This document shows positions 10,206-57,796 of a stretch of DNA of 64,000 nt, piece after piece. The stretch's first letter is position 1. Each line of letters starts with the position of its first letter. Where the stretch lies: contig CACYYM010000004.1 in the NCBI GenBank assembly GCA_902778625.1, positions 62,001-126,000 on the forward strand. The letters are read 5' to 3'. The notes under the pieces were generated by a model that ran no database searches, was not told the DNA's origin, and saw nothing but the letters and a program-made list of their open reading frames with translations. This DNA comes from an uncultured Bacteroidales bacterium (GTDB lineage Bacteria > Bacteroidota > Bacteroidia > Bacteroidales > Bacteroidaceae). A program made the position numbers and the translations under genes.

Positions 10206-10265
10206 CTGCTTTTTACTGGCAATTGTGACAATCTCTCGAAGAAAAATGTCGCAAAGGGGAAAATA

Positions 10266-10351
10266 AAACGCCGCACGCGGGGATTGCAATCGCCGCACGC
10301 GGGGATGACTAACGCCGCACGCGGGGATAACCAACGCCGCACGCGGCGTTT
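10266..10351 (+). repeat. 22-bp period array, GC-rich family, 4 units
   Basis: CCGCACGCGG recurs at 10271, 10293, 10315 and 10337, exactly 22 bp apart, linked by GGATTGCAAT, GGATGACTAA and GGATAACCAA. The final unit closes into a perfect 8-bp inverted repeat AACGCCGC-AC-GCGGCGTT. It lies between the divergent SGNH and GH16 genes, and the stretch holds no gene. Confidence 0.9.
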
Positions 10352-10437
10352 CAGGACTCCCCTTGCCAAACTTGGCGCCTTTCTTTTCCAAAAGAGATCC
10401 ATCGGTGCTCTAGCGCAGGAAATAATAACTCTTTCAT

Positions 10438-12636: not shown

Positions 12637-12897
12637 ATGAAAAACATCATCTTGAAACTGGCCGCGACATTGTTCCTGCTCGTGGTCTTGCCTCTTGGCA
12701 CAGAAGCTCAACCGAAATGGCATTGGGAGAAAGGAACCATCGTAGTGGACACGCCCGAACAGGAAGCCGCCGTCGATTCCCTTTCTGCAAAATATACCCG
12801 AACGCTCAAGACGAAAGGCCCAAAAGCCGCCGAAAAGCTTCTGAAGAAACACAACACGTTAAGTTGCTCAACACACCACGTTAAGTCTGGCATTTAA
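12637..12897 (+). CDS. small exported protein of unknown function, C-terminus formed by a repeat array
   Basis: An 86-residue frame with a clear signal peptide (residues 1-24, ending TEA). The mature part begins WHWEKGTIVVDTP, a motif very like HWDKGTLIVETP just after the signal peptide of the Gfo/Idh protein at 20.8-22.4 kb. The rest is a basic helix (LKTKGPKAAEKLLKKH). The final 15 or so residues and the stop are encoded by 22-bp repeat units, so the original protein may have been longer or ended differently. Arrays lie on both sides. Function unknown. Confidence 0.55.
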   Translation: MKNIILKLAATLFLLVVLPLGTEAQPKWHWEKGTIVVDTPEQEAAVDSLSAKYTRTLKTKGPKAAEKLLKKHNTLSCSTHHVKSGI

Positions 12898-12902
12898 CCA
12901 TG
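12855..12902 (-). repeat. 22-bp period array, AGTT family, 2-3 units, overlapping a coding end
   Basis: CACG at 12855 and 12877 are 22 bp apart, and CATG at 12899 keeps the phase. The units read CACGTTAAGTTGC and CACGTTAAGTCTG on the plus strand, which is AACTTAACGTG on the minus strand. Confidence 0.8.
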
Positions 12903-12953
12903 CCATATTTCAAGGCGACTTTTTCCAAACTCGGAGTTTCTCTTTACCAAATG

Positions 12954-12984: not shown

Positions 12985-13033
12985 ACCGTCCTTTGCAGCA
13001 GAAAACAAAAAGATAAAAGATAAAAGAAGAAAG

Positions 13034-13906
13034 ATGGAAGACCGTACTACTCTTAACCGTCAGTTGGCTCAGATGCTGAAGGGCGGAGTGATTATGGACG
13101 TGACGACACCCGAGCAGGCACGAATTGCCGAGGCTGCGGGGGCGTGTGCAGTAATGGCTTTGGAACGTATTCCCGCCGACATCAGAGCTGCTGGAGGAGT
13201 AAGCAGGATGAGCGACCCGAAGATGATACGGGGCATTCAGGAGGCTGTGACGATTCCCGTGATGGCGAAGTGCCGCATCGGTCATTTTGCGGAGGCGCAG
13301 ATACTCGAGGCCATCGAGATTGACTACATCGACGAGAGCGAGGTGCTCTCTCCCGCAGATGATGTCTATCACATCGACAAGCGGAAGTTCCGCGTGCCGT
13401 TTGTCTGTGGGGCAAAGGACTTGGGCGAAGCGCTCCGACGCATCAGCGAGGGTGCCACGATGATACGCACCAAGGGCGAACCCGGCACGGGCGACATCAT
13501 ACAGGCCGTCCGCCACATGCGCCTGATGCAAAGTGAAATCAGGAGACTCGTTTCGCTCAGCGACGATGAACTCTACGAGGCAGCAAAGCAGTTGCGCGTG
13601 CCTTCCGAACTGATACGCTTTGTTCACGAGAACGGCAAGCTGCCCGTTGTTAACTTTGCTGCAGGCGGTGTGGCCACGCCAGCCGATGCAGCCTTGATGA
13701 TGCAACTCGGCGCAGAAGGCGTGTTCGTGGGAAGTGGCATCTTCAAGAGCGGCAATCCGGAGAAAAGGGCTCAAGCCATTGTGAAAGCCGTCACAAACTA
13801 CAACAACCCAGCCGTCTTGGCGCAACTCAGCGAAGACCTCGGCGAGGCGATGGTAGGCATTAACGAGAGCGAGATACAACTGCTGATGGCAGAGAGGGGG
13901 AAATAA
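13034..13906 (+). CDS. pdxS: pyridoxal 5'-phosphate synthase subunit PdxS
   Basis: A 290-residue (beta/alpha)8 synthase subunit of the DXP-independent B6 pathway. It condenses ribose 5-phosphate and glyceraldehyde 3-phosphate with ammonia from PdxT to give PLP. The family hallmarks are intact: [41 protein letters not shown] with the catalytic Lys near residue 81, and [11 protein letters not shown] with the second Lys near 149. The ATG at 13034 is used; an upstream TTG frame reads across a terminator. A TTTGC-containing sequence (12988-12996) may be its -7 box, but it lacks the TA. pdxT follows after 69 bp. Confidence 0.95.
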
Positions 13907-13975: not shown

Positions 13976-14518
13976 ATGAGAATAGCTATCTTAGCTCTTC
14001 AAGGAGCTTTTGCAGAGCATGAACAGATGCTTAGGTTGCTTGGGGTTGAAACAACACTAATAAGAGAGCATTGGAAAGACGTTTCTGGCCTCATTATTCC
14101 TGGTGGCGAGAGCACATCCATGATGCGGATTATGAGGGACGAAGGGCTTTTCGAACCACTCCGACAGGCAATTCTTGACGGGCTTCCGGTGCTCGGAACT
14201 TGTGCGGGCCTCATCATGCTCGACCGCAATCATCTTGATGTGATGGACATCATGGCTCGCCGAAACGCCTACGGCAGGCAGTTGGGAAGCTTCAATACAG
14301 AGGAGGAGTTCAAGGGCATCGGACGGATTCCCATGACTTTCATCCGCGCTCCTTACATTGAGGAAGCAGGTCCAGAAGTTGAAATCCTTGCCCGAGTGGA
14401 TGGCAAAGCCGTTGCTGCTCGACAGAAAAATATGCTCGTGACAGCTTTCCACCCCGAGCTAACTAACGACACCCGCATCCATGAGTTGTTCCTCTCCATG
14501 GTTAAGTCGAAAAACTAG
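13976..14518 (+). CDS. pdxT: pyridoxal 5'-phosphate synthase glutaminase subunit PdxT
   Basis: A 180-residue class I glutaminase that feeds ammonia to PdxS. The start [12 protein letters not shown], the GGES motif near residue 46, the nucleophile Cys in GTCAGLIML (near residue 79) and FHPEL with the catalytic His near the C-terminus are all present. The Cys-His-Glu triad is therefore complete. A 22-bp array starts directly after the stop codon. Confidence 0.95.
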
Positions 14519-14519
14519 G

Positions 14520-14641
14520 CACGCCGAGTTGGGCAATTCGACACGCCGAGTTGGGCAATTCGACACGCCATGTTGAACAATTCGACACGCCATGTTGAAC
14601 AATTCGACACGCCATGTTTTACAACTAAGCGTGTTGTATCA
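14520..14641 (-). repeat. 22-bp period array, AGTT family, 6 units
   Basis: CACG at 14520, 14542, 14564, 14586 and 14608, with CGTG at 14630: every step is exactly 22 bp. Units carry AGTT-GGGC-AATT or a degenerate version. The array begins at the stop codon of pdxT and runs a few codons into the convergent LuxR-type gene. Confidence 0.92.
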
Positions 14642-20030: not shown

Positions 20031-20099
20031 ATGAAACGCCTCTACCTTCTTCTTTTAACTTTGACGGCATCTACATCCAGGGCTACAGGAAGATTCTGA
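20031..20099 (+). pseudogene. possible remnant of an exported-protein gene (signal peptide only)
   Basis: A 22-residue frame starting MKRLYLLLLTLTAS looks like a signal peptide and stops soon after. A near-consensus -7 box TATCCTTGC lies at 19996-20004. It may be what is left of a gene whose body was lost; a GC-rich 22-bp array starts about 22 bp after the stop. The rest of 19924-20288 holds no gene. Confidence 0.3.
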
Positions 20100-20121
20100 G
20101 ATTAATGAGAAGGGGGGCACA

Positions 20122-20206
20122 AAACGCCGCGTGCGGCGATTGCAATCTCCGCACGCGGAAATGACCAACGCCGCACGCGGCGTTTGAAATCCCCCCGCAC
20201 GGGAAT
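20122..20206 (+). repeat. 22-bp period array, GC-rich family, 4 units
   Basis: Core decamers start at 20127 (CCGCGTGCGG, inverted loop), 20149, 20171 and 20195: steps 22, 22 and 24. The third unit is the closing palindrome AACGCCGC-AC-GCGGCGTT, and a decayed unit follows. Confidence 0.88.
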
Positions 20207-20288
20207 GGAAACAACGACGAAGAATCATGGCGGAATTACACGCAATCATCGTCGCAAGAACGCGTAATTATTTTAGGAGAACACGTTC

Positions 20289-23620: not shown

Positions 23621-24682
23621 ATGAAATACAAACTTGCTTTAACATTAATATTGGGCTTGCTTCTCTTGACTAGCTGCACGAAGGAGCAATTCTTCCCGCA
23701 GGCTAGCGGACGTCCTTACGAAGTGCTTGTCGTGCTCGACAACAAGACGTGGGAAGCCCCTGCCGGTCGTGCTTTGTTCGACATCCTCGATACTGACGTG
23801 CCTTGCTTGCCACAAAGCGAACGCTCGTTCCACATCACACAAATCGAGCCGAAAGACCTGAGCGCGAACTTCAGCATCTTCCGAAACATCATTCAGGTCA
23901 ACATAGACAAGACCCAATACAGCCGTACAGGTATGCGCTTCATGCGAAACAAGTACGCGATGGACCAGATTGTGCTCACCATCAACAGTCCGAGTCTGGA
24001 GGACTTCCAGCAGTTCTGCATCGACCACAAACAGGAGGTCATCGACTTCCTGACACGAACCGAGATGAACCGACTCATCAAAGAACTGGAGACGAAGTAC
24101 TCGAAGGTGACCTACGACCTTGCTTGGCAAACCTTTACCTGTCGCTTCCACGCTCCAAAGGAACTGACTGCCTACAAGAAGGGCGAGCACTTCTTCTGGA
24201 CAAGCAACAATACGGCAAGCGGATTGGAGAACATTTGCATGTACAGCTACCCGTACGAGGGACCTGAGACGTTCAACAAGGAATACATGGTGGCCAAGCG
24301 CGACTCCGTGATGAAAGTGAACCTCCCGGGCGAGAAGCCAGGCATGTTCATGAAGACAGACTCGCTCTGCACGATAGTCAAGCCGATTGCCGTACACAAC
24401 AGTTATGCCATGGAGATGCGCGGCCTCTGGTACATGGAGCACGACGCCATGGGAGGCCCGTTCGTGAGCCACTCCAGAGTCGATACGGAGACGAATAGCG
24501 TGGTCGTGGTCGAAGGCTTCGTCTATGCTCCGGAAAAGATGAAGCGCGGCCTCATCCGCAGGCTCGAAGGCTCGCTCTACACCCTCCAACTGCCTCAGGA
24601 ACAGTACTCGCTTATCGACACAGGACTTGAGGAAGAATCCAATCCAAAGGCATCTGCCAAAACGAAGGCAGGGAAGAAGTAA
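23621..24682 (+). CDS. DUF4837 family lipoprotein
   Basis: A 353-residue protein with a lipoprotein signal peptide (lipobox LLTSC, Cys about 19). The sequence following (RPYEVLVVLDNKTWE, FSIFRNIIQVNID, then LRGLWYMEHDAMGGPFVSH) matches the DUF4837 family of Bacteroidetes, whose function is not known. It would sit on the inner leaflet of the outer membrane or the outer face of the inner membrane. The gene order with rlmN before it and pdxA after it is common in the phylum. Confidence 0.8.
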   Translation: MKYKLALTLILGLLLLTSCTKEQFFPQASGRPYEVLVVLDNKTWEAPAGRALFDILDTDVPCLPQSERSFHITQIEPKDLSANFSIFRNIIQVNIDKTQYSRTGMRFMRNKYAMDQIVLTINSPSLEDFQQFCIDHKQEVIDFLTRTEMNRLIKELETKYSKVTYDLAWQTFTCRFHAPKELTAYKKGEHFFWTSNNTASGLENICMYSYPYEGPETFNKEYMVAKRDSVMKVNLPGEKPGMFMKTDSLCTIVKPIAVHNSYAMEMRGLWYMEHDAMGGPFVSHSRVDTETNSVVVVEGFVYAPEKMKRGLIRRLEGSLYTLQLPQEQYSLIDTGLEEESNPKASAKTKAGKK

Positions 24683-24686
24683 AACA

Positions 24687-24782
24687 CACCACGTTAAGTT
24701 GCCCAACTCACCACGTTAAGTTGCCCAACACACCACGTTAAGTTTGCAAACTCACCACGTTAAGTTTGGCAACACACCACGA
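24687..24782 (-). repeat. 22-bp period array, AGTT family, 5 units
   Basis: CACG at 24690, 24712, 24734, 24756 and 24778: every step is exactly 22 bp. The units alternate cores AGTT-GCCC-AACT and AGTT-TGCA-AACT. It fills the gap between the lipoprotein gene and the PdxA-like gene in an otherwise tight block. Confidence 0.93.
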
Positions 24783-24802
24783 TATAAAGAAAGAACAGAC
24801 AC

Positions 24803-30249: not shown

Positions 30250-30262
30250 GATTTGGGGCAAA

Positions 30263-30352
30263 AAACGCCGCACGCGGAGATTGCAATCCCCGCGTGCGGC
30301 GTTGGCAATTTCCGCAGGCGGCGTTTGAATTTCCGCAGGCGGCGTTTTTTTT
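30263..30352 (+). repeat. 22-bp period array, GC-rich family, 4 units, ending in a T8 run
   Basis: Core decamers start at 30268 (CCGCACGCGG), 30290 (CCGCGTGCGG), 30312 and 30333 (CCGCAGGCGG): steps 22, 22 and 21. The first two units can pair as a long hairpin. The last unit runs into eight T, so the array probably terminates cutC transcription. It lies between convergent genes. Confidence 0.9.
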
Positions 30353-34693: not shown

Positions 34694-34903
34694 CGAAAAA
34701 AACAGAGAACAAAGGCTAAAGAACGGAGATTTTTTATCGTTGATGCCCATAGCAAGCCTAGAATACTGCTTTTCGTCCGAGACACTGATGGATAGGTTCG
34801 CAGGAGAGAGAGGCAGAAACTTTTACCGGACTGCAACAAAAATCTTTACAATATTCTGCGTGTTAAAGTGCGGCATTTTGAGATGAGGCACAGGGCATTT
34901 CCC

Positions 34904-35030
34904 AACGCCGCACGCGAAGATTGCCAACGCCGCACGCGACGTTTGCAATTTCCCCATGCGAAGTTGTCCATCCTCGCAAGCGGAATTTTGGCTCAAACCA
35001 TGCGCAGTTTACCCCTTAGGCATGCGGCGA
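34904..35030 (+). repeat. 22-bp period array, GC-rich family, decayed, about 6 units
   Basis: Clear cores at 34908 and 34930 are followed by degenerate ones at 34952 (CCCCATGCGA), 34974 (TCGCAAGCGG), 34996 and 35018 (AGGCATGCGG), all in a 22-bp phase. The rest of the 34694-35252 gap holds no gene that I can support. Confidence 0.75.
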
Positions 35031-40019: not shown

Positions 40020-40057
40020 TACTTCTAATTTTATCTCACGACAGGGAGAGCTTTCAA

Positions 40058-40141
40058 ACGCCGCACGCGGAAATCCCAAACGCCGCACGCGGAAATTGCA
40101 AACGCCGCACGCGGGGATTGCCATCGCCGCACGCGGCGTTT
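40058..40141 (+). repeat. 22-bp period array, GC-rich family, 4 units
   Basis: CCGCACGCGG at 40061, 40083, 40105 and 40127: exact 22-bp steps. The rightmost unit forms the closing palindrome. It sits inside the arg cluster between argG and argC, where it could act as a terminator or attenuator on the minus strand. Confidence 0.92.
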
Positions 40142-40198
40142 TTGGCTTTTGCTAACGGCCTGTATATCAGCAGCATTCGAAATACGTTAAAATTGCGT

Positions 40199-42685: not shown

Positions 42686-43987
42686 TTATTCGTCGAGTAA
42701 ACGAAGCTGCACAAGCTCTATCTTCGTTGTTGTCTTCTTGGTGACTTTGAATTCCCACTTACCAATCCTGACAGGTTCATTAAGCTTGGGGAAGTTTTGG
42801 AATTCGTGAAGAATGAGTCCTCCGACGGTCAAGTACTCGTCGCTTTCCGGCAAATCCAGGTCGAGAAGTTCGTTGGCTTGGGCAATCTCGAGACGTCCTG
42901 AAAGCAAGTATTCGTTCGGACCTGTCTGGCGAGCCGTGTAGTTCTTGCTGTCGTGCTCATCTTCTATCTCACCGAATATCTCCTCTACAAGGTCTTCCAT
43001 CGTGACGATGCCGCTCGTGCCTCCGAACTCATCGACGATGACCGCCATAGAACGCTTCTGGTTGATGAAGATGCCGAGGAGCTTCTGGGCATTCATCGTC
43101 TCAGGCACAATCGAGACTTCATGAATGTGCTTCGTCCAGTCCTCGCCCTCCGCGAGTCGGAACATCTCAACCGTGTGAATGTAACCCACAATGTCGTCGA
43201 TGTCCTCTTTGTACACGATGATCTTGCTATGACCGCTTTCCACAAATTGCGTTCGAAGGTCTTGAAGGGAAGTATCGACAGAGACGGCTGTTATCTCGGT
43301 ACGGGGCACGATGCAGTCTCGTACTTTTATCGAGCTGAAGTCGAGTGCGTTCTGGAATATCTTCACCTCGTCCTCGATGTCTTCATCATCGGTTGCTTTG
43401 TCGATGTTGCTTTGTATGAGATAGTCAAGGTCTTCCCGAGTGAAAGTCTTCTCAAGCTTCGCCTTCTTCACCTTCTCGCCCATCATCCAAAGCAGGCCTT
43501 TGCCGAGCGAGCTCGTGAACTTGCTGACGGGCCACAATATAATATAAAAGATGTAGGCTGGCAAAGCGAAAATGCGCATCATCTTGTTCGGGTTGATACG
43601 GAAAAGCGTTTTGGGAAGGAATTCGCCTGTAACGAGAACGATGAGCGTGGCTATAATCGTTTGCAGGAAGAGACAGAGAGCTTCGTTCGGGCAGTTGCCG
43701 TCGGGATGATGTATGCCAAGCGGAATGAGTACGAGTACGCTGACAATCTTTGCCATCAGGATGCCGTAAACGACAAGCGCGATGTTGTTGCCGACCAAAA
43801 GCGTTGAAATGAAACTGTTCGGGTGACGGTAGAAAGTATCAATAAGGCGAGCCGAGAAGCCCTGCTCTTCCCTGTCCATCTCGAAACGCAGCTTGCTCGA
43901 AGAGACGAAAGCAATCTCCATCCCAGAGAAGAAACCTGAGAAAAGGAGGATGACGATGGTGGCGATTATGGTTGAAGAGTCTATCAT
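42686..43987 (-). CDS. gldE: GldE-like transmembrane CBS-domain protein (CorC/HlyC family)
   Basis: A 433-residue protein. Residues about 5-205 form a DUF21/CNNM membrane domain with several helices. Two CBS domains follow (about 220-345, with DCIVPRTEI and IVDEFGGTSGIVTMEDLVEEIFGEI split as IVDEFGGTSGIVTMEDL). A CorC/HlyC transporter-associated domain ends the protein. GldE is named for gliding motility in Flavobacteria, but orthologues occur in non-gliding Bacteroidales, where a divalent-cation transport role is more likely. It overlaps lptC by 4 bp. Confidence 0.85.
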   Translation of the reverse strand: MIDSSTIIATIVILLFSGFFSGMEIAFVSSSKLRFEMDREEQGFSARLIDTFYRHPNSFISTLLVGNNIALVVYGILMAKIVSVLVLIPLGIHHPDGNCPNEALCLFLQTIIATLIVLVTGEFLPKTLFRINPNKMMRIFALPAYIFYIILWPVSKFTSSLGKGLLWMMGEKVKKAKLEKTFTREDLDYLIQSNIDKATDDEDIEDEVKIFQNALDFSSIKVRDCIVPRTEITAVSVDTSLQDLRTQFVESGHSKIIVYKEDIDDIVGYIHTVEMFRLAEGEDWTKHIHEVSIVPETMNAQKLLGIFINQKRSMAVIVDEFGGTSGIVTMEDLVEEIFGEIEDEHDSKNYTARQTGPNEYLLSGRLEIAQANELLDLDLPESDEYLTVGGLILHEFQNFPKLNEPVRIGKWEFKVTKKTTTKIELVQLRLLDE

Positions 43988-44637
43988 CTGTTTGCTGGTT
44001 CTGTTTCCTGAACGGGGAAGGTGCCTGTGGAGTTGAGCACAGAGTACTTCGTCATCTGTTCGTTACTATAGAAATGTGTGCCTTCGAGCTCTCGTTCTGG
44101 GGTTGTGATGTGCATGTATTGGTAGTTCCACATCTCGTGCTTGTTCAAGTCCCAAAAGAGTTCTTCGGTTCGGAAGACGTCGCCGTTGACATTTCTCACC
44201 ACGACTCTGCCCCTCAGCTCCCAGAGTTGTTGCTTATGCAAGTATGCCGTATCGGATTGCACGAAGAGGTCGACGTGAAACTTCTCGTCGAAACGTTCCA
44301 TGAGCATGCCCTTCATGAACTTCCACGAAGGCTGCTCGCCGTTCGCGCCATTATAGATGTCCCATTCCTCGACGACCATGTGGTAGCGCATCACGCCGCT
44401 GTCGCTGATGAAGGTATTAATGCCTACTGAATGCATGAAGAGCAGCGAGTCCTTTGCCGCGATAGGCTCTGCCAGATGCTCCACCTCGCCTGAACAACTG
44501 GCAACAGAAAGGAGATTGAAGAAGATAAAAGCAGACAGAAGGAAACAGAAGACATTAGCTTTTTTCTTTCTGAAGCATTGTCCTCTATCTTCGTCGCTGG
44601 AAGCGACATATCTTCCTTTATCTTCTTCTGTCTCCAT
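43984..44637 (-). CDS. lptC: LPS export protein LptC
   Basis: A 217-residue lipoprotein or membrane-anchored periplasmic protein. A charged N-terminal stretch precedes a hydrophobic segment ending LLSVASC (lipobox-like). The rest (MRYHMVVEEWDIY, RGRVVVRNVNGDVFRTEELFWD) is the LptC/OstA-like beta-jelly-roll that passes LPS from LptF/G to LptA. The first about 45 residues align closely with the start of the outer-membrane protein encoded just upstream. It overlaps gldE by 4 bp and lies 4 bp after the outer-membrane protein gene. Confidence 0.82.
   Translation of the reverse strand: METEEDKGRYVASSDEDRGQCFRKKKANVFCFLLSAFIFFNLLSVASCSGEVEHLAEPIAAKDSLLFMHSVGINTFISDSGVMRYHMVVEEWDIYNGANGEQPSWKFMKGMLMERFDEKFHVDLFVQSDTAYLHKQQLWELRGRVVVRNVNGDVFRTEELFWDLNKHEMWNYQYMHITTPERELEGTHFYSNEQMTKYSVLNSTGTFPVQETEPANR
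44511..44634 (-). repeat. duplicated N-terminal coding module, copy 1 (in lptC)
   Basis: This encodes RYVASSDEDRGQ, KANVFCFLLSAFIFFNLLS. It is an imperfect copy of 45894-46029, sharing pyrimidine-rich tracts of TCTTCTTC and CTTCTGTCT type on the minus strand. Confidence 0.6.
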
Positions 44638-44640
44638 GCT

Positions 44641-46029
44641 TTATTCAATCTTATACTTCACGAACCAACGTTCGTTGAACGTCATGCCGAGATTGATGAG
44701 CAAGTAGTCTTCTTTCACCATTCCGTTGCCGCTTGCCGAGCGCCTCATCCATTGAAGGCCGACGTTTACAACGGAGCGATTGTTTATTTTGTTCGTGATA
44801 GGCAAGCCTACACCTGCTCCCATACGGAACTCCACAGGGCCGTTCCGATCGTTTATCTTGAGGAAAGGTGTCGAGAAGTTCATGCCTGCACGATACTGTA
44901 TGCGTTTCCAATAAGACTTCACAAGGGGGTCGGGCGTCCATTGGGCACCTAGAGCTATCTTTGTCATATCTTTGTAGAAGCCTTTCGTCGGTACGTAGTC
45001 GTCCAACGTCTCAGCAGGAACTCGGCAATTACTCCAGAATTCATGGCGAACGTCGGCTGCCACGAGGAACGTGTTCTTGTGTTGCCAAGCCGCACCAAAG
45101 CCGAAGCTGTAAGGCAGATCGAATGGCGAGGAAGCCGTTGCCGTAGTGTCGCTACCGACGACAAGCGTTACGTCCTGAGGAATCTTGTGTCCCAAAGCAG
45201 CCGTTGCACCGAGATTAAGCCAGTCCTGCTTCGTGAGACGAATAGGATATTGCATGCCGAAGTCGAGCTTGTAGGTCTTCAGCGAAGCGTTCATCACCTT
45301 GGGAACGCTGCTGTATTTGTCGTTGTCGTAGCCGCCTTCCAAGAACAATGGCGAGATGCGATGTTCGTATTGTCCCCAAAGGAAGCTGACGTTGGCACCT
45401 ATCGAAATATTGCGGAACACTCTCCATCCCAAGCCGATGTATGCCTGATTCAAGCCTCCGCTGCCACGATAATAAGTGGTAGTCGTGATGGATTGCGTGG
45501 TGTTGTGGTCACTGCCGACTGGCTGCTCGGGCGAAGAGAAGTCGTAGCCGATAGTAGTATAAGGCATTACGCCGAGTGCGAGGCCAAGCTTTTTGCCAAC
45601 GTGCATGCCAGCATGAACGTAGTCGAGCGAGGCGTTGTTGGTTCCGACCTGTATCGAGCCTTGCTTCATCTTGCCGAAAGAGCCCGTCATACCCACGTCG
45701 AAGATAAGGCTCAAGGAGTCGATAGCAGAATAGGAAGCAGGGTTCGTCGAGTTGATACGATTGCCGATGCGAACGCCGATGCCAGCTCCGCCCATCGATT
45801 TATTAAGGCCATTCGACTGCTCAACAGGCAAGCCTAGCCCGAAGCGCGAGTAGGTAGAGTTCGTGCCACTTATTTGGGCAGAAACTTTCAAAGGGGAAAG
45901 GAGATAGAAGAAGATAAAAGAAGACAGAAGGAGATAGAGGACGTTAGCTCTGCCAACGTCAAAGTGTTGTCTTTTATCTTCGCCGCGGGAAGCGACATAC
46001 CTTCTTCTATCTCCTTCTGTCTCCTTCAT
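44641..46029 (-). CDS. outer-membrane beta-barrel protein, possibly FadL/OmpP1-like
   Basis: A 462-residue protein. After an unusual charged N-terminal extension comes a hydrophobic signal segment (LLLSSFIFFYLLSPLKVSAQ). The mature start (NGLNKSMGGAGIGV, NSTNPASYSAIDSL) resembles OmpP1/FadL-type barrels, and the remainder has alternating amphipathic strands up to the C-terminal Phe-Val-Lys-Tyr strand. The ATG at 46029 is chosen because it aligns with the lptC start; in-frame ATGs at 46047 and 46056 are also possible. It lies between coaX and lptC. Cargo unknown. Confidence 0.75.
   Translation of the reverse strand: MKETEGDRRRYVASRGEDKRQHFDVGRANVLYLLLSSFIFFYLLSPLKVSAQISGTNSTYSRFGLGLPVEQSNGLNKSMGGAGIGVRIGNRINSTNPASYSAIDSLSLIFDVGMTGSFGKMKQGSIQVGTNNASLDYVHAGMHVGKKLGLALGVMPYTTIGYDFSSPEQPVGSDHNTTQSITTTTYYRGSGGLNQAYIGLGWRVFRNISIGANVSFLWGQYEHRISPLFLEGGYDNDKYSSVPKVMNASLKTYKLDFGMQYPIRLTKQDWLNLGATAALGHKIPQDVTLVVGSDTTATASSPFDLPYSFGFGAAWQHKNTFLVAADVRHEFWSNCRVPAETLDDYVPTKGFYKDMTKIALGAQWTPDPLVKSYWKRIQYRAGMNFSTPFLKINDRNGPVEFRMGAGVGLPITNKINNRSVVNVGLQWMRRSASGNGMVKEDYLLINLGMTFNERWFVKYKIE
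45894..46029 (-). repeat. duplicated N-terminal coding module, copy 2 (in the outer-membrane protein gene)
   Basis: This encodes RYVASRGEDKRQ, RANVLYLLLSSFIFFYLLS and pairs with 44511-44634. The two copies are about 1.4 kb apart in the same orientation, each placed at the start of a gene. Confidence 0.6.
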
Positions 46030-46033
46030 TATT

Positions 46034-46762
46034 TCAGTCTTTTTCATTATAATCAAGTATCTTATTCAGCCCTCTCGGCACGAGATATCTGTCCGAGAAG
46101 ATGCTGTTCTTGATGTTCGTGTCGAAGTTTATATGGTCGCCTCCGGTCAGGAAGACTTGCAGGTGAGGGAACTTCGAACGCATCGACTTGATGTATCCCT
46201 CGATCTCGTACTTCATTCCACGCAGCACGCCGCTTCGGATGGCAGTTTCGGTATTGTAACCCATGCCTGGAACTTCGCCCTCGGCCTCAACCAAAGGCAG
46301 TCTTGCGGTGAATTCATGCAGGGCCCGCAACCGCATTTGCATGCCCGGAGCTATGTTTCCGCCCCAATAGTTGCCACGCGCATCGATCACTTCGTACGTG
46401 ATGCAAGTGCCGGCATCGATGATGAGGAGGTCGGAGTTAGGCTTCAGCGAGCTGGCTCCTATCACGGCAGCAAGGCGGTCGCTGCCAAGCGTTTCGGGCG
46501 TTCTGTAACGGTTCGAGATGGGAATTGGCGTGCTTGGAGAGAAACGCAGAAGCGGGAACTTCAGGCTCGCGAGAGCCCTCTCCTCATGTTCTGTCAGGTC
46601 GCGAACAGAACCGACAATGCCTTTGCTGAACTGATGTTTGTGCAGAAAAGACTCGAGACCAGTGAGTTCCCCGCTCTCCGAACGTATCAAATCGACAGGC
46701 TCGTCACCCTGGAAAGCTACCATCTTAGTGACGGAGTTTCCTATGTCTATAATTAATTTCAC
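46034..46762 (-). CDS. coaX: type III pantothenate kinase
   Basis: A 242-residue ASKHA-fold kinase for the first step of CoA synthesis. It has MKLIIDIGNSVTKM (phosphate-binding Asp), GSDRLAAVIGA, LIIDAGTCITYEVID and NIAPGMQMRLRALHEFTA motifs. It is first in a four-gene minus-strand unit with the outer-membrane protein, lptC and gldE, a mix of CoA and envelope genes that is common in Bacteroidetes. Confidence 0.93.
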   Translation of the reverse strand: MKLIIDIGNSVTKMVAFQGDEPVDLIRSESGELTGLESFLHKHQFSKGIVGSVRDLTEHEERALASLKFPLLRFSPSTPIPISNRYRTPETLGSDRLAAVIGASSLKPNSDLLIIDAGTCITYEVIDARGNYWGGNIAPGMQMRLRALHEFTARLPLVEAEGEVPGMGYNTETAIRSGVLRGMKYEIEGYIKSMRSKFPHLQVFLTGGDHINFDTNIKNSIFSDRYLVPRGLNKILDYNEKD

Positions 46763-46775: not shown

Positions 46776-46927
46776 CGAAATAAAGTTGAAAGTTGAAAGT
46801 TTAGAGTTTAAAGATGCGCCTTTTTACGTATTTTTTGCAATTCAGTCAGCCGAGACGACAGGGAAGGAGAGCCATCCCGACACTTGTTCTGACCCGACTC
46901 GACTGGTGGTGTTTCAAAACTTAGCAC

Positions 46928-47101
46928 GGTGAGTTGATTATATGTACATGTATGTATAATTATAGATACATGTATGTATAATTGTAGATACATGTATGTA
47001 TAACGAACTTCGCACGTCAAGTTTTGAAACTCAGCCTGTCGAGTTTTGAAACTCAGCCTGTCGAGTTTTGAAACATAGCTTGTCAAGTTTTGAAACAAGG
47101 C
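46928..47101 (-). repeat. hybrid 22-bp period array, about 8 units with changing core
   Basis: Registers at 46928, 46950, 46972, 46994, 47016, 47038, 47060 and 47082 are each 22 bp apart. The first unit is AGTT-like (GTGAGTTGATTA). The next three have an AT-rich TACATGTA core with GTATAATTATAG-type linkers. The last four have AGTT-TTGA-AACT. The remaining parts of 46776-47205 hold no gene. Confidence 0.88.
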
Positions 47102-51169: not shown

Positions 51170-51220
51170 AACATACGCCTGACCGACCACACGAGAGAAT
51201 GCAAAAAGGATATGTTAAAA

Positions 51221-51303
51221 ACGCCGCACGCGGGGATTGCAATCGCCGCACGCGGAAATGGGCAACGCCGCACGCGGCGTTTTGAATCCCCGCACGCGGC
51301 GTT
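51221..51303 (+). repeat. 22-bp period array, GC-rich family, 4 units
   Basis: CCGCACGCGG at 51224, 51246, 51268 and 51290: exact 22-bp steps. The third and fourth units both end in GCGGCGTTT. It lies between the phosphatase-like gene and secA on the same strand, so it may separate two transcripts. Confidence 0.92.
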
Positions 51304-51352
51304 TGAAAACCATCAACCAATCATCAACGAACAATACATTATAATATAATAT

Positions 51353-57646: not shown

Positions 57647-57690
57647 ATAACAGAACGCCCATTAAGCCTTCTTACCTATAAGGTTCACAA

Positions 57691-57796
57691 ACGCCGCACG
57701 CGGGGATTAAAACGCCGCACGCGGAGATTGCCAACGCCGCACGCGGGGATTGCCAACGCCGCACGCGGGGATTAAAACGCCGCACGCGGCGTTGGA
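57691..57796 (+). repeat. 22-bp period array, GC-rich family, 5 units
   Basis: CCGCACGCGG at 57694, 57715, 57737, 57759 and 57780: steps 21, 22, 22 and 21. The 21-bp steps follow units ending GGGATTAAAA. The last unit is the closing palindrome. It lies between the two terminators of convergent genes. Confidence 0.92.

Follow-up and report, generated by a model that had tools for sequence, protein, structure and literature searches.

A dispersed palindrome, MITE-like and specific to one lineage, has very probably been inserted independently at the starts of two neighbouring envelope genes of a Bacteroidales genome, bamG and lptC, where it displaced most of the native signal peptide and encodes its replacement. 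The window, that is the whole stretch of 64,000 nucleotides that was analysed (G000:C4:62001-126000), belongs to a draft genome of 3.08 Mb in 39 contigs, and both insertions are read from this one genome of the species.

Two copies of a repeat at the starts of lptC and bamG

On the minus strand of the window, a pantothenate-kinase-like gene (identified by inspection) is followed by bamG and lptC, with gaps of a few bases. The bamG gene (44641..46029, minus strand, 462 aa) encodes a subunit of the beta-barrel-assembly machinery and matches NF053685 over residues 54-460 (319 bits, cut-off 250), and lptC (43984..44637, minus strand, 217 aa) clears the Pfam cut-off for PF06835 (22.6 bits, cut-off 21) and is slightly under that of TIGR04409 (36 bits, cut-off 38). 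Both genes are single-copy, no second copy of lptC or bamG having been found in the genome. BamG is essential in Flavobacterium johnsoniae (PMC12611786), so that a working signal peptide is likely here.

A preliminary description of this DNA had pointed out similar starts in lptC and the upstream outer-membrane protein gene, ahead of unrelated mature parts, and both observations hold, the mature proteins belonging to the different families named above. The repeat lies at 44507-44652 (lptC start) and 45896-46041 (bamG start), with a constant spacing of 1389; the DNA is 89% identical over a 54-nt segment and 80% over an 80-nt segment, and the encoded protein starts read METEEDKGRYVASSDEDRGQ...ANVFCFLLSAFIFF and MKETEGDRRRYVASRGEDKRQ...ANVLYLLLSSFIFF. 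In a whole-genome search the two copies match each other with an E-value of 1e-26, far beyond chance, and more copies are found elsewhere. The element proper, recognised by the covariance model R1, by its inverted repeats and by orthologues that lack it, occupies 44509..44637 (minus strand, 129.5 bits) at lptC and 45898..46026 (minus strand, 130.3 bits) at bamG. By coordinates, the former copy codes for residues 1-43 of LptC, comprising a charged n-region and a hydrophobic h-region, and the latter for residues 2-44 of BamG. Each copy is bounded by inverted repeats of 29-30 nt close to its ends: 44506..44535 pairs with 44611-44640 in the lptC copy (30 nt, 80% complementary) and 45918..45946 with 45998-46026 in the bamG copy (29 nt, 86% complementary), the hydrophobic stretch being the minus-strand reading of the arms 44506..44535 and 45918..45946. 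There is also a small similarity just outside the element, where the AAGATTGAA-like stretch preceding the lptC start is the conserved end of the bamG gene; its similarity to the other copy looks like coincidence.

In lptC, an in-frame TAA lies two codons upstream of the ATG at 44637 and no further ATG, GTG or TTG is present between this ATG and the lipobox Cys48. In bamG there are two upstream ATGs; start codons lie only upstream of the hydrophobic stretch, the next possible one being a TTG past it. With no usable start codon left to either ORF after the hydrophobic stretch and before the mature protein, translation must run through the element, and the possibility, raised in the preliminary description, that both proteins start downstream of the repeat is excluded for ATG, GTG and TTG codons. 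The lipobox S-V-A-S-C48 of LptC follows directly after the element and is host sequence, and the BamG cleavage site, likely between V-S-A and Q52, also lies within host sequence. By composition, a basic n-region, a hydrophobic core and a cleavage motif or lipobox, as in Sec and lipoprotein signals, are found in LptC (...FRKKKANVFCFLLSAFIFFNLLSVASC) and in BamG (...VGRANVLYLLLSSFIFFYLLSPLKVSA, followed by Q), with n-regions that mix acidic and basic residues, unlike most signal peptides. The element-coded peptide would act as a Sec signal, processed by signal peptidase II for LptC and by signal peptidase I for BamG. The very stable hairpin predicted at the start of the message could hinder translation, and coupling to the preceding gene may help.

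Comparison of LptC N-termini in relatives, which the preliminary description had proposed, indicates how these leaders were acquired. LptC matches are found in 59 of 61 genomes, with alignments that mostly start around residue 30-45, past the repeat, and the relatives inspected lack it and have ordinary leaders, e.g. MKRLFPFLLALLLLSFGC; alignments with BamG orthologues from 14 relatives similarly start at residue 31-50. Where the window has the element at the lptC start, relatives have the bamG stop codon, often followed directly by the lptC start and a native leader. As 28-71 nt of the native leader at empty sites are missing from the occupied sites, this is a replacement and not a plain insertion. 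Since orthologues of lptC and bamG without the element have ordinary signal peptides, the comparison argues that each gene received the element INDEPENDENTLY and had its own signal peptide replaced.

Architecture and distribution of the element

The element is a palindrome of about 130 bp with decamer arms (GAAGATAGAA/TTCTATCTTC), a small covarying hairpin, an inner stem and a variable loop. In 17 aligned copies from eight genomes, the order is purine-rich decamers (GAAGATAGAA), the hairpin GTCGC-loop-GCGAC, the inner stem GAAGATAGAGGAC/GTCCTCTATCTTC, the loop and a pyrimidine-rich return arm. The hairpin, found at 44593..44607 (minus strand) in the lptC copy and, as GTCGC-loop-GCGGC, at 45982..45996 (minus strand) in the bamG copy, is paired in 17/17 copies despite sequence change, with compensatory changes in two of its five pairs (UA to CG; CG to GC or UA). 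The full structure beats 500/500 shuffles on covariation score and percentage paired, a comparison inflated by the relatedness of the copies, and pairing is lost when partners are slid by 1-3 columns, a comparison biased in that a structure derived from the same sequences favours itself. The window copies fold at -53.7 and -55.6 kcal/mol (z -6.7 and -6.5 versus shuffles). Membership of an Rfam family was rejected, no family fitting the element and the best matches being far under the gathering threshold.

We call the element MITE-like as it is short (within about 100-200 bp), carries terminal inverted repeats and occurs in many dispersed copies, with orthologous sites that are empty. The empty-site comparison revealed no clean target-site duplication; the element ends in variable decamer arrays, and the empty sites have diverged. 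A RAYT-driven REP element, which resembles this one in forming dispersed palindromes in intergenic DNA, was rejected on the absence of any match to a Y1 transposase (Y1_Tnp) in the incomplete genomes of four carriers (G000, G005, G020 and G036). Two single MAGs contain several element copies within 0.2-2 kb (L270 4657-6532 and L224 2874-3054); by eye, the DNA between the L270 copies contains a small ORF that looks like a DNA-binding protein and another ORF like a phage-type peptidase, and no parent transposon was seen between clustered copies.

The genome search for further copies that the preliminary description had envisaged was fruitful: the covariance model locates seven places in the window genome (C4:106509, 107898, 52310 and 50255; C26:25976; C6:7076; C30:61443), and partial matches, for instance C15:20227, come from BLAST. 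Relatives carry many more copies, mostly intergenic; covariance-model hits under about 50 bits include other repeat types and are not taken as certain copies. The earlier suggestion of a mobile 5' module carrying a signal sequence is essentially right, in that a dispersed palindrome encodes the n- and h-regions here, but the element is not intrinsically coding: its copies are mostly intergenic, it serves in either orientation, and its coding use is a co-option. The core pattern is found in 99 stretches in a collection of 84,980 species and, among the matches listed (80 loci), all are MAGs named Bacteroidales, Bacteroidaceae or Prevotella(ceae), many with ruminant gut in their titles. By BLAST, 15 of 61 sampled genomes of the genus carry the element, and in an order-level sample of 149 genomes that of the window is the sole carrier at a strict threshold, with none in the 148 others. 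The element is lineage-bound. A decamer-like remnant (AAAAGATAAAAGATAAAAGAAGA) lies at window positions 13017-13038, immediately before a pdxS-like gene, and full copies are present at this place in L248 and G027:C55.

Coding in every frame and at other genes for exported proteins

Three decamers (TTCTATCTTC x3, 30 nt) read FYLLLSSSIF, and the purine arm reads charged residues (EEDKGR and similar). As the decamer length is 1 modulo 3, the pyrimidine arm reads a rotation of (FYLLLSSSIF)n in every frame, and as the arms are inverted repeats, either orientation yields charged and then hydrophobic residues, the order needed by a Sec signal peptide. A hydrophobic stretch free of stops closes 31% of the six-frame readings of 126 distinct copies (some of them one site that two collections share), against 6% for intergenic and 5% for coding controls, 4% for shuffled copies and 0.4% for copies read backwards; when a start codon and a basic residue in front are also demanded, the value is 14% against 2-4% in the controls (0% backwards).

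The element codes for the N-termini of about eight further families of exported proteins, in both orientations: a porin-like protein (G020:C171), a lipoprotein common to two species (G027:C70 and G036:C6), a DUF3316 protein (G036:C105), a Lipocalin_8 lipoprotein (G036:C34), a Reg_prop protein (G043:C107) and, in the opposite orientation, a DUF4369/AhpC-TSA lipoprotein in four species (G000:C6, G027:C42, L252 and L274) and a TPR protein (G000:C4:50255), together with a GH130 protein whose start is half an element (G000:C15); some copies at these starts score low in the covariance model (34-62 bits). The relatives' own signal peptides show, independently of the element, that LptC, BamG, the DUF4369 protein and the porin-like protein are exported; for the remaining proteins, export is judged by family or by the leader that the element encodes. 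Open frames that continue from the element into a cytoplasmic gene meet that gene's own start within a few codons; by inspection, such neighbours include PdxS, LeuB, dihydrolipoamide dehydrogenase and an isopropylmalate-synthase-like enzyme, among others. The DUF4369 gene has retained its element-coded leader in four species, between which most synonymous sites of the mature part have changed (dS 0.74-1.6, against 0.04-0.27 for the element part). Orthologous copies, with the loop counted in, often surpass the flanking genes in conservation (98% vs 82%; 99% vs 77-86%), which may reflect a function of their own at the RNA or DNA level, refreshing by recombination or slow mutation. Intergenic orthologous copies that are better conserved between species than the flanking coding DNA are L002, L045 and L261; L156, L244 and L247; and L130, L131 and L134.

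Other repeats also occur in signal-peptide DNA of the genus. The DUF4369 lipoprotein has received its signal peptide from three repeat types, namely the decamer element in the four species above, the heptamer ATTCTTC (leader FFILHSSLF) in G036 and G020, with a full palindrome including GAAGAAT in G020, and a C-rich palindrome (LLLPLKGVGGSFLF) in G013 and G052. LptC of G036 likewise carries the C-rich palindrome, and BamG of several species carries CTTGCTC/CTTGCCC heptamers. The ATTCTTC and C-rich motifs are dispersed repeats for which the reversed pattern gives almost no hits, and seven-base units, too, are 1 modulo 3. In sister species, LptC, BamG and DUF4369 leaders overlap other repeats (L059, L310, L312, L314, L318, L089, L090 and L093). 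Several further leaders (G027:C42 8576, G027:C42 98539 and G000:C5 40645) include an AT-rich stretch (ATTATATATATAGG, read HIIIYIG or YLIIYIG) that is found in intergenic DNA as well.

In a sample of 1.18 Mb from three genomes, whose contigs were partly picked for element copies and whose gene and signal-peptide calls were home-made, 19 of 272 signal peptides had DNA that matched intergenic DNA elsewhere at E 0.01, a higher rate than for transmembrane helices (4 of 393) and random coding segments (9 of 751); at E 0.001 the number of signal peptides was 10. Excluding the two window genes, the excess has p = 1.8e-4 and 2.8e-5 versus transmembrane helices and random coding segments, respectively; a first version of the test, run against all sample DNA and so counting paralogues too, was not significant. 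That repeats are the source of most signal peptides in the genus was rejected, 19/272 being a minority of a few per cent. We propose tentatively, at slightly less than even confidence, that signal peptides of exported proteins in this genus undergo turnover through palindromic repeats of several unrelated families (10-bp, 7-bp and C-rich units), and that 1-modulo-3 units with purine and pyrimidine arms would be portable signal peptides independent of frame and orientation, one DUF4369/AhpC-TSA lipoprotein being served by three families among sister species; this coding by-product would aid the persistence of the elements near genes.

Explanations and comparison with known systems

According to the explanation that we favour, an element of about 130 bp inserted separately at the bamG and lptC starts, displacing most of each native signal peptide and supplying a new one from its own reading frame, with charged residues from the purine arm and a hydrophobic stretch from the pyrimidine arm, whatever the frame and orientation. 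Given this reading, insertions at the starts of exported genes would often leave a usable signal peptide and survive, and insertions beside cytoplasmic genes would persist only where the gene's own start remains downstream. The sequences themselves show what the element is, how it is dispersed, that its insertions were independent, that the frame through it is forced to be open, that native leaders were lost and that such events recur; we infer that the peptide works as a Sec signal and that survival, not targeting, accounts for the pattern.

The adjacency and common orientation of the two genes, with the repeat at the same place in each, could suggest that one gene copied its 5' end to the other by local duplication or gene conversion, as the preliminary description had considered. 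However, the window copies are 76% identical, an ordinary level for two family members, and the partner ranks only 53rd and 45th in similarity among 127 copies, the bamG copy being nearer to an intergenic copy on another contig (86%); they are thus not each other's closest relatives, and with copies spread over this and related genomes and sites without the element in orthologues, conversion between the neighbours is extremely improbable. It is scarcely more probable that the 5' ends are recently broken and that this strain exports LptC and BamG poorly or not at all. Repeat insertions into genes are usually harmful and the genome is a draft, but the frames are open across both elements, the lipobox and cleavage motif are retained, there is no sign of a second lptC or bamG copy in the genome, and the DUF4369 leader has been kept in four species with diverged mature parts.

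A more serious competitor, although we still hold it somewhat unlikely as the main explanation, is that the element functions mainly as structured RNA or DNA, regulating mRNA stability or translation for instance, with selection on structure and incidental coding use. The covarying hairpin, the conservation of orthologous copies and their loop above that of flanking genes, and the low dS in the element part of the DUF4369 gene all speak for it; yet it leaves unexplained that element-coded N-termini are those of exported proteins and that native leaders were replaced, and a mobile palindrome also needs structure in order to move. It may be true alongside insertion and replacement. Leader DNA might also be a preferred target, with leaders swapped, and not hit randomly, through recombination between the element and leader DNA of like pyrimidine-rich sequence. 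This would fit the 28-71 nt of native leader missing where the element encodes the leader, as well as the occupation of the same leaders by different repeat families in sister species, but copies are mostly intergenic, away from leaders, and random insertion followed by loss of the leftover native leader would look identical; we regard such targeting as unlikely.

Insertion of a palindrome with replacement of a leader has partial precedents. In Yersinia, the YPAL/RU-2 palindrome forms residues 1-30 of the 41 of the predicted signal peptide of YPO1552, where those of homologues are unrelated (Delihas 2007, PMC2759123; PMC2229807). Like RU-2, our element is a small dispersed palindrome with a hydrophobic frame in part of a predicted signal peptide; RU-2, however, concerns one gene of unknown function, one family and one orientation, whereas the present case covers about ten gene families, lptC and bamG among them, and several repeat families, with use in either orientation and a 1-modulo-3 unit that makes the frame irrelevant. 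Rickettsia RPEs are palindromes within genes that serve as in-frame coding sequence (Ogata et al. 2000, as related in PMC2229807 and PMC10969869). They are alike in size and in-frame coding use, a likeness drawn here in mode of working, but RPEs add tolerated segments to many proteins, cytoplasmic ones too, whereas the element described here takes the place of a targeting signal and, where it has been seen to code, does so only for N-termini of exported proteins. That an arbitrary hydrophobic N-terminus can be a signal peptide is explained by an artificial library in which Kaiser and colleagues reportedly replaced the invertase signal with random sequences in 1987, no mobile element being involved there.

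The BrickBuilt MITE of Porphyromonas gingivalis has internal tandem repeats with 23-nt units and promoter activity (PMC4596501). Set against it by description only, our element shares its MITE-like nature, its occurrence in Bacteroidales and its internal tandem repeats; signal peptides are not mentioned in the part of the BrickBuilt text that was searched. The 22-bp-unit arrays of the window resemble BrickBuilt more than the signal-peptide element does: those of AACGCCGCACGCGGGGATTGCC type (10233-10373, 20089-20229, 30255-30346, 34848-34988, 40023-40163, 51186-51326 and 57677-57795) recur each 5-15 kb across the window and, again by description only, are reminiscent of its 23-nt units. A second set with a 22-bp period (AACTCACCACGTTAAGTTTGCC and AACTCAGCCTGTCGAGTTTTGA types) lies at 18-64, 12848-12907, 14506-14618, 24676-24786 and 46897-47096, and includes at 46897-47044 a 74-nt inverted repeat whose arms have no gap.

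In our searches of the open-licence literature, we found no description of this element, of a signal-peptide element independent of frame and orientation, or of such replacements in conserved envelope genes. The fusion of palindromes to genes and one partial signal peptide were already known from RPEs and RU-2, and it is the recurrence that appears to be new. Signal peptides evolve fast, and the gain or exchange of one by a gene is rarely caught happening. In the present case one can see the dispersed palindrome that acted as donor, the genes that received it, bamG among them, and the sites without it. The case also shows in what way a non-coding repeat that is mobile can accommodate coding in any frame and either orientation.
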